In this document: positions 25,677-28,838 of the stretch, piece by piece
Layout of the letters: each line of letters begins with the position of its first letter
Numbering within the stretch: the first letter of the stretch is position 1
DNA from: an uncultured bacterium
GTDB lineage: Bacteria; Patescibacteriota; Patescibacteriia; Patescibacteriales; UBA12465
Direction of reading: 5' to 3'
NCBI GenBank assembly: GCA_903874345.1
Contig: CAIQRY010000062.1
Coordinates: 1 to 39,948, forward strand
Length of the DNA stretch: 39,948 bases
Notes under the pieces: generated by a model
What the model saw: only the letters and a program-made list of their open reading frames with translations
What the model was told of the DNA's origin: nothing
Databases searched by the model: none
Position numbers and translations under genes: made by a program

Positions 25677-26471
25677 TTAGAGAGCAAAACGGACGAACTT
25701 TAAGACGTTCGTACCGCCTAAAATATCTTTGACTTTTTTCTTATCATCTTTAATATACTCCTGTTCGATTAAGCAAACTTCGGAATAAAACTTATTCATT
25801 TTGCCTTCGACGATCTTATCAACCATAGCCGCCGGCTTCCCTTCTTTGAGCAATTGTTCTTTATAGATTTCTTTTTCATGGGCCATTTCTTCAGCCGCGA
25901 CTTCCGAGGATAAGATATATTTCGGATTGGCTGCCGCGACTTGCATCGCGACTTCCATGGCAATATCTTCTTTGCCCGCCGCGTCGAGGGCGACTAAAAC
26001 GCCCATTCGGCCACCTAAATGAGAATAGGCCGCTACGCTCGCGCCGGAAACAGTCGCAAAGCGCTTAAGACCCATTTTTTCGCCGGTCGTGCCGCTTAAA
26101 TTATCAATATTTTCCTGAACCGTGCCCTTTTCCATAGAGAGAGCCAACAAGGCTTCTAGGGTCGCCGGTTTATTAGTCTTTACTAAAGCTAAGATCTGAT
26201 CGGCAAAAGCCTGAAATTTTTCATTGCGAGCGACAAAATCGGTTTCGGAATTAAGCTCAATCATATAAGCTTCATTCTTCGCGTCGCTTACGCCAACTTT
26301 AATTACGCCCTCGCTCGCTTCGCGATCGGTGCGTTTAGCGGCTTTGGCGATTCCGCTCTTGCGTAAAATATCGACGGCTTTTTCGAGGTCGTTACCCGCT
26401 TCTTTCAAAGCCTTCTGGCAATCAACCATACCCGCGCCGGTCATTTCGCGCAACTGTTTAATGAGTTCCAT
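25677..26471 (-). CDS. tsf: Elongation factor Ts
   Basis: IKQLREMTGAGMVDCQKALKEAGNDLEKAVDILRKSGIAKAAKRTDREASEG; MIELNSETDFVARNEKF. Confidence 0.97.
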   Translation of the reverse strand: MELIKQLREMTGAGMVDCQKALKEAGNDLEKAVDILRKSGIAKAAKRTDREASEGVIKVGVSDAKNEAYMIELNSETDFVARNEKFQAFADQILALVKTNKPATLEALLALSMEKGTVQENIDNLSGTTGEKMGLKRFATVSGASVAAYSHLGGRMGVLVALDAAGKEDIAMEVAMQVAAANPKYILSSEVAAEEMAHEKEIYKEQLLKEGKPAAMVDKIVEGKMNKFYSEVCLIEQEYIKDDKKKVKDILGGTNVLKFVRFAL

Positions 26472-26502: not shown

Positions 26503-27195
26503 TTATTTGACGTTCTTTTTGCCTTCTAAGACCGCATCGCGAATGGACGCTAAAATTAATTTAATGGTCTTAGTCGAATCGTCATTGGCCGGAATCGGAT
26601 AAGTAACTTCTTCCGGATTGACGTTCGTATCGCAAATAGCAATAATCGGAATATTTTTCTGACGCGCTTCCTTAACCGCCGTTTCTTCCTCTTTAATATC
26701 CCAAATAAATAAAGCGTCTGGCATCTTGTTTAACATCGTTAAGCCGCCAACGCGCAGTTCTAATTTTTTAATTTCACGTTCGAAATCCAAACGCTCCTTT
26801 TTCGTGTATTTATCTAATTTACCCGTATCGCGTTTCTCAATTAAATCAAGATATTTCTTCACGGATTTCTTAACCACGGCAAAATTAGTTAAATAACCGC
26901 CGAGCCATTTACCGACGATATACGGTTGGCCGACTTCGACCGCCATTTTCTTAAGCGGTTCGGAGACCTGGTTCTTAGTGCCGACAAATAAAATACTTTT
27001 ACCCTCGCTAACTAATTTCGCCATGAATTCAAAAGCTTCTAACATTTTTTCCTGAGTTTTCTTGAGGTCAATAATGTAGATGCCATTTTTCGACGTGAAA
27101 ATGAATTGCTCCATTTTCGGATGCCAACGGTTAGTCCGATGGCCGAAGTGCATGCCGGCTTTCAGCATGTCTTCTAACTTGGGAACAGTTAACAT
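26503..27195 (-). CDS. rpsB: 30S ribosomal protein uS2
   Basis: LKAGMHFGHRTNRWHPKMEQFIFTSKNGIYIIDLKKT; PIIAICDTNVNPEEVTYPIPANDDSTKTI. Confidence 0.98.
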   Translation of the reverse strand: MLTVPKLEDMLKAGMHFGHRTNRWHPKMEQFIFTSKNGIYIIDLKKTQEKMLEAFEFMAKLVSEGKSILFVGTKNQVSEPLKKMAVEVGQPYIVGKWLGGYLTNFAVVKKSVKKYLDLIEKRDTGKLDKYTKKERLDFEREIKKLELRVGGLTMLNKMPDALFIWDIKEEETAVKEARQKNIPIIAICDTNVNPEEVTYPIPANDDSTKTIKLILASIRDAVLEGKKNVK

Positions 27196-27330
27196 ATTTT
27201 TCTTTTTTAGCTCGACTTAAAAAGCCGAGTTCGTCTGCTCCCCAGCTCCGGTAATCCGGAGAAGAAAAAGATGGCTAAAAGCCAACGGGAGCATGATGAT
27301 TATTAATAAAATAGAGGTAAAACCTCTGTG
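27196..27330 (-). promoter_or_regulatory. Structured 5' leader of rpsB
   Basis: AGAGG-TTTTA-CCTCT; outer GCTCCC/GGGAGC enclosing TGGC-TTTTA-GCCA and CTCCGG-ATTA-CCGGAG; then CTCGGC-TTTTTAA-GTCGAG. Confidence 0.65.
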
Positions 27331-27334
27331 TCTA

Positions 27335-27363
27335 AATATAGATTAAATTTTGGCCATTGTCAA
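27335..27363 (-). promoter_or_regulatory. Promoter of rpsB(-tsf)
   Basis: TTGACA-N17-TATATT on minus strand. Confidence 0.75.
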
Positions 27364-27374
27364 GAGAAAAGGCC

Positions 27375-28838
27375 CTATTGCTGATAGAAATCCTTGACGG
27401 CCTGATTAAAAGTCACCACAGCCTGATTATAAGAGTTAACTTTAGTCTGGTAATTGGCATAAGCGTCATTATACTGGTTAACCGCGTTATTATAAGTCGG
27501 GACTAAACTATTATACTGCGCGTAATTGCCGCTCGCATAATAAGCGTCTAATTGCTTCTTCAAATCACTAACCGCGGTCGCCTGGGCATTAATACTGGTC
27601 TCTAAATTATCAATAATCGCTTGATTAGTGCTTAAATCCGTTTGCTGTTGTTTTAAATTCGCGATTTTAGCCTTAACAGCGCTAAGCCCGGTATAAGACA
27701 CGCCGGTCGTTTTCTGATAAATCTCGACTTTTCCTAAAACCGCGGAATTAAACAAATTATCAAAGTCATTCGTGGTCGCTTTCGCTTGGCCATTAATTGA
27801 CTGCGGAATTATGCCTAAGGGAAAATAATTAGTCGTCTCGGCGTAACAATAGCCGGAACCATTTAAAGAATCCGCGACCGGGCACTGTAGCCCCACCGCG
27901 CTATGATTAATATCCGGGAAGTCTAAAATCGCGGCGCCATAACCTAAATCGCGTAACAGGGCGACGGCTAAAAATGTTTTATCCGAACAAACACCGCGAT
28001 CGAGATACAAAGTTTCATAAGGATAATAAGGATCAAGATTGCGGTCGCTATTTAAACTTAATTTTCCGAAATCATAAGGGATATACTGAATAAAAGACAG
28101 AGTGAATTCAGCGAGCTCATCGCTCGTCCAATTATTACTTAGAGCGGTCGCCCGCAAAGAGGCGGCTAGATTATTTAAAGTCAGGTCGCCGCTTCGGGCT
28201 TTCAAAAATAAGCCATAGAAAGCGTCACGCGGATTAGCGGGCGGATTGCTTGTGCTATAAGTATAAACTTTCGGCGAATTTTTATAAGTGTTATAAAGAG
28301 TCGATGATAAATTTAGACTAACATTATAAGCGGTCGTTTGATATTTAAAATTAAAATTACTGGCTGACAAAGTCGCGGGTACATCAGCGCCGGGAGCTAT
28401 CGGAATCTTCGCGAGATTAGCGTCCGTAATTCCTAGGCCTTGCTGGCGAATGACCTGAAAAGCGGTCGCAGGATCGCCAAGCGACAATAACTTTAAAGTC
28501 AGAGGATTAATATAATAAGCCTGACCTTTATCTTGTACTTTAAGGAGGATGCGGCCGCCTAAACGACTCGGCGCACCCTGGACTAAAAATTTACTTAGGT
28601 CCGTATTAGTCACGCCCAAACCTAAATTACGCATCAGATTAAGGGCGTCGGCCGGACGACCTAAATAATAACGTTCGCTATTTAAGGGATTAACATACCA
28701 GGCTTGGCCCTTGTCTTCAACCTGTAATAAAATACGACCGTTTAAATTTAGTCCCGCGGCTTGGGCAATATTAAAAACACCGGCGAGCGCCGCAACAACG
28801 ATTAAAGATAAAAATATTTTTGATATTTTTTTGAACAT
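27375..28838 (-). CDS. Secreted transglutaminase-like protein with two N-terminal repeats and C-terminal coiled coil
   Basis: Signal peptide; duplicated module GRILLQVEDKGQAWYVNP...YLGRPADALNLMRNLGLGVT; LDRGVCSDKTFLAVALLRDLGYGAAILDFPDINHSAVGLQC (Cys/His of transglutaminase-like fold). Confidence 0.8.
   Translation of the reverse strand: MFKKISKIFLSLIVVAALAGVFNIAQAAGLNLNGRILLQVEDKGQAWYVNPLNSERYYLGRPADALNLMRNLGLGVTNTDLSKFLVQGAPSRLGGRILLKVQDKGQAYYINPLTLKLLSLGDPATAFQVIRQQGLGITDANLAKIPIAPGADVPATLSASNFNFKYQTTAYNVSLNLSSTLYNTYKNSPKVYTYSTSNPPANPRDAFYGLFLKARSGDLTLNNLAASLRATALSNNWTSDELAEFTLSFIQYIPYDFGKLSLNSDRNLDPYYPYETLYLDRGVCSDKTFLAVALLRDLGYGAAILDFPDINHSAVGLQCPVADSLNGSGYCYAETTNYFPLGIIPQSINGQAKATTNDFDNLFNSAVLGKVEIYQKTTGVSYTGLSAVKAKIANLKQQQTDLSTNQAIIDNLETSINAQATAVSDLKKQLDAYYASGNYAQYNSLVPTYNNAVNQYNDAYANYQTKVNSYNQAVVTFNQAVKDFYQQ

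Follow-up and report, generated by a model that had tools for sequence, protein, structure and literature searches.

A divergent rpsB leader from Patescibacteria in which a uS2-responsive pseudoknot may cover the translation start region

The rpsB motif was described from Proteobacteria, Cyanobacteria, and Firmicutes (Meyer et al. 2009, PMC2704228). It is composed of a stem P1, a three-stem junction with a variable or absent P2 and P3, and a pseudoknot formed between J2-3 and the 3' extension of P1 (PMC2704228). The rpsB leader of E. coli represses in response to S2, with S1 being needed for the full effect, and the ribosome-binding site (RBS) is reviewed as not being part of its S2 operator (PMC10931766). 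In Rfam, this leader corresponds to the t44 family (RF00127). The leader presented here is likely a Patescibacteria form of the rpsB motif, through which uS2 would exert feedback by way of a pseudoknot over the start region.

The window, i.e. the whole stretch of DNA analysed (39,948 nucleotides), belongs to a small Patescibacteria genome of 835 kb in 68 contigs, whose nearest named relatives are Candidatus Falkowbacteria. On its minus strand, the ATG of rpsB is at 27195 and the stop codon of the upstream gene at 27375. The consensus promoter that a sequence-only reading of the window had placed between them is indeed present at 27363-27335, with 11 of 12 consensus matches. The predicted transcription start lies about 133 nt 5' of the ATG, for a leader of about 130 nt, and promoters of a similar kind precede rpsB in most family- and order-level relatives. 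rpsB and tsf are probably co-transcribed. The features of the locus are as follows.

27335..27363, minus strand: promoter, TTGACA-17 nt-TATATT (11/12 consensus matches).
27313..27327, minus strand: 5'-terminal hairpin AGAGG-UUUUA-CCUCU, with a U-rich stretch downstream (from the fold; family-level accessory element).
27287..27298, minus strand: 5' strand of P1, with a bulged A at 27294 (from the fold and relatives).
27272..27284, minus strand: P2 hairpin UGGC-UUUUA-GCCA (from the fold; optional, near relatives only).
27262..27269, minus strand: J2-3, U-rich, 5' strand of the pseudoknot, UUUUUCUU (complementary to 27204-27197; covariation).
27246..27261, minus strand: P3 hairpin CUCCGG-AUUA-CCGGAG (from the fold; hairpin kept while its sequence varies).
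27232..27242, minus strand: 3' strand of P1, GGGAGC-A-GA-C-G (from the fold and relatives).
27211..27229, minus strand: P4 hairpin CUCGGC-UUUUUAA-GUCGAG, located 3' of P1 and 5' of the second pseudoknot strand (from the fold; optional).
27197..27204, minus strand: 3' strand of the pseudoknot, AAGAAAAA, at the Shine-Dalgarno position (pairing with J2-3; covariation).
26503..27195, minus strand: rpsB, ribosomal protein uS2, the gene downstream of the leader (PF00318, E 1.2e-81).
25677..26471, minus strand: tsf, elongation factor Ts (EF_TS, E 2.6e-66).

The leader RNA (27330-27196) folds at -45.2 kcal/mol, compared with -27.5 +/- 3.4 kcal/mol for shuffled sequences (z = -5.16), and none of 200 shuffles was as good. 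The 5' hairpin, the GCTCCC/GGGAGC outer helix, the two inner hairpins, and the last hairpin were all found at the sites where the sequence-only reading had put them, and all are part of the minimum free energy (MFE) structure. That reading had overlooked two features, an extension of P1 past the bulged A and the pseudoknot. In the core of P1, GCUCCC (27292-27287) pairs with GGGAGC (27242-27237), and the helix extends outward beyond A27294 through C27295-G27235 and U27296-A27234; P1 consists of seven pairs, the bulged A, then the C-G and U-A pairs. The three-way junction that had been proposed stands in the window, where P1, P2, and P3 are all present, but the core of the element is made of P1, P3, and the pseudoknot, with P2 being optional and missing from most relatives. 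Likewise, the hairpin described just before the ATG (P4) exists but is optional, and most order-level relatives lack it.

A hairpin near the predicted transcription start occurs in 63% of 43 relatives, compared with 23% of shuffles at equal score. Within the family, a GAGG...CCUC hairpin with a U-rich tail (27313-27327 in the window) recurs upstream of rpsB. Our guess is that the 5' hairpin shields the mRNA end. Both this hairpin and P2 are followed by U-rich sequence and are listed as terminator-like; together with the recurrence of the 5' hairpin and its tail near the predicted start in relatives, this would fit a transcription attenuator, one or the other hairpin being an intrinsic terminator. 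Such an attenuator is unlikely, given that the stems are short (5-6 pairs, 3 G-C), that a terminator 20 nt past the start would require an antiterminator, none of which was found, and that the U-rich strand persists in most relatives though P2 is absent, a persistence for which the pseudoknot accounts. Attenuation by P2 was rejected because P2 is optional.

The comparison drew on rpsB leaders of about 59 order-level genomes and of 88 genomes across the phylum. Pair counts covered 18 pairs in a fixed register in 36 sequences, i.e. the 38 of the alignment without L112 and without L017, in which J2-3 is displaced. Sequence anchors delimited the blocks: P1 and J2-3 were taken as columns of a structure-free MAFFT alignment, and the pseudoknot 3' strand was anchored at the last AAG before the ATG. 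Among these 36 relatives, 90.6% of cells were paired, against 79.7 +/- 0.8% after shuffling and 54-62% with partners slid. Two-sided changes numbered 94, against 30 after shuffling, and the covariation score was 0.404, against 0.185 for shuffled sequences and 0.08-0.14 for slid partners. The bulged A of P1 is invariant in the same set. A strict descriptor recognizes 90% of 59 order-level leaders and 1.5% of shuffles, and the layout that order-level leaders have in common is CUCAUACUC...UUUUCCUUG-hairpin-GAGUAGAGG...AAAGGAAA-AUG, or close forms of it. The sequence-only reading had named a junction without conservation or covariation in relatives as evidence against its proposal; the structure survived this comparison, with two-sided changes at 8 of 10 P1 pairs and the element located directly 5' of rpsB in relatives too.

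The overlooked pseudoknot is formed by UUUUUCUU (27269-27262) and AAGAAAAA (27204-27197), which are complementary over 8 nt and both single-stranded in the MFE structure. As modelled, it covers the translation start region, with 6-12 nt from the G of its 3' strand to the ATG. In the order set, UC in J2-3 accompanies GA before the ATG and CC accompanies GG, with joint change in 10 sequences and one U-G; four of the eight pairs are invariant in this set and are therefore uninformative. Across the phylum, J2-3 is mostly UCCU, and AGGA, with which it pairs, usually doubles as the Shine-Dalgarno. Because ribosome binding keeps AGGA fixed, information comes from the positions flanking it; the CCU anchor was picked by hairpin and P1 scores, independently of these flanks. 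Of 97 phylum leaders, 66 have the first position after AGGA paired, compared with 47.0 +/- 4.2 after permutation. When each of 44 families is represented by a single sequence, this position is paired in 79% (z = 4.5), UA, UG, CG, AU, and GC all being seen, whereas in the same 44 families the second flanking position is weaker (z = 2.4) and positions beyond it give no signal. This anchored test replaced an unanchored search for the best complement between leader body and start region, whose signal was weak (z of 3.8 overall and 1.1 within the order), because AT-rich leaders match by chance.

Other arrangements of the 3' strand were observed. Four Patescibacteria leaders (L188, L209, L224, and L227) carry AACCCC directly before AAGGA, as if strands of the E. 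coli type and of the Shine-Dalgarno type had both been kept. In leaders from Ktedonobacteria/Chloroflexi (L084, L087, L089, L104, and L110) and Megasphaera (L077 and L105), the likely 3' strand (AGGG or ACAGG) abuts or partly coincides with the Shine-Dalgarno, and overlap of the two is thus perhaps not unique to Patescibacteria.

A Shine-Dalgarno-like motif precedes only 4 of 41 window genes, though the genome retains a canonical 16S-type 3' end, GGATCACCTCCTT. Order-level relatives carry AAAGGAAA where the window has AAGAAAAA; the window's rpsB is also without the GG, and J2-3 is altered in step. Because the GG was lost and yet J2-3 changed along with it, this is read as selection for the pairing itself. 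The leader might alternatively be a constitutive element, acting in mRNA stability or as a ribosome standby site, with no feedback switch. 5'-terminal hairpins protect mRNA, which counts in its favour, but the pseudoknot still follows the start region when the Shine-Dalgarno is gone, and the leader resembles the S2-responsive leader of E. coli; a purely constitutive role is improbable. Another ligand, such as EF-Ts, bS1, or a further ribosomal protein, would make the likeness to the S2 leader a mere resemblance. In its favour, tsf is part of the operon and E. coli S2 needs S1 for its full effect (PMC10931766). Such a ligand is nevertheless very improbable, in view of the likeness to the S2 class and of the position of the confirmed cases, directly before rpsB.

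Returning to feedback by uS2, we infer that uS2 is the ligand, that it represses, and that the pseudoknot takes part in this repression. P1 with its bulged A would hold P3, together with P2 in the window's genus, and present the U-rich J2-3, which would form the pseudoknot with the nucleotides immediately 5' of the start codon. When in excess over 30S subunits, uS2 would bind P1 and the junction and stabilise a weak pseudoknot, so that the landing site of the ribosome would be blocked and less rpsB and tsf would be translated. Most simply, the pseudoknot would itself occlude the start region, with uS2 stabilising it. An S1-repeat protein, a bS1 candidate, is present, in keeping with this proposal. 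The predicted energy of the pseudoknot is about -4.0 kcal/mol in the window, compared with -6.4 kcal/mol in relatives from the order and -9.3 kcal/mol in E. coli. This weakness counts against the proposal, but it would suit a protein-dependent switch, without being proof of one.

An Rfam search of the window, which the sequence-only reading had proposed as a check, gave matches at chance level only, both at the gathering cut-off and up to E 10, and no t44. The t44 model did match three distant Patescibacteria relatives (L140, L168, and L144) at the right place, with 22-23 bits against a cut-off of 44. A cross-phylum covariance model, R2, was based on 15 non-Patescibacteria leaders, labelled as Bacteroidota, Chlorobi, Ignavibacteria, KSB1, Caldithrix, Chloroflexi, Proteobacteria, one unnamed bacterium, and E. 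coli. It finds Patescibacteria rpsB leaders on the rpsB sense strand (best E = 3e-11), as well as six order-level relatives of the window (E 2e-4 to 0.013). The window itself is unmatched by R2, and its link to the class runs through these intermediates; it is reached by the order model only, which was built with the window included. The order model has a single match in the window's own genome, at rpsB, and recovers leaders across the phylum in the correct orientation. Over 287 phylum genomes it gave 28 matches, which were not used as an estimate of prevalence because several weak ones lie away from rpsB. The analysis shows the structure, its covariation, its place before rpsB, and its relation to a known motif. 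Judged from sequence comparison, the window leader is probably a divergent variant of the rpsB motif, or uS2 autoregulatory leader class, and this S2-leader variant appears widespread in Patescibacteria.

Five rpsB leaders of one family in the phylum set, f67 (L148, L156, L174, L194, and L206), are without the motif. Some of these five have another inverted repeat further upstream, GGGAACCCGC...GCGGUUUCCC, possibly a replaced leader. In L157 (33-97), a short ORF in a different frame separates the leader from the rpsB match, and the start or frame is ambiguous.

A literature search found no report of an S2 leader in Patescibacteria, which does not make the absence of such a report certain, and the main text of a 2020 survey of novel ribosomal leaders mentions neither uS2 nor Parcubacteria nor Patescibacteria. 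With the leader described here, a known ribosomal feedback RNA would be extended to a very large and mostly uncultured phylum. The arrangement also suggests a simple answer to how the S2 leader halts translation though its E. coli form excludes the RBS, a point described as unclear in a 2024 review. For curators, this would be grounds for broadening Rfam t44, which is classed as an sRNA and does not capture the Patescibacteria members.

Compared with the rpsB motif, the location before rpsB(-tsf), the long P1, the P2/P3 junction, and the pseudoknot between J2-3 and the P1 3' extension are all found here. The differences are the host, Patescibacteria, and the pseudoknot 3' strand, which lies at the Shine-Dalgarno position. 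With t44 of E. coli, the element shares its place as an rpsB leader, a P1 followed by GGAGG on the 3' side, and an inner hairpin. The pseudoknot is UUCCU/AGGA in Patescibacteria (UUUCUU/AAGAAA in the window's family), whereas it is GGGGU/ACCCC in E. coli, where ACCCC is located 5' of the Shine-Dalgarno and over 20 nt away from the ATG. With confidence evenly balanced for and against, we propose that in Patescibacteria, and apparently in Ktedonobacteria and Negativicutes, the pseudoknot moved onto the Shine-Dalgarno, such that uS2 would directly open or close the RBS, and that lineages dropping the Shine-Dalgarno, such as the window's genus, kept the pairing by compensating change.
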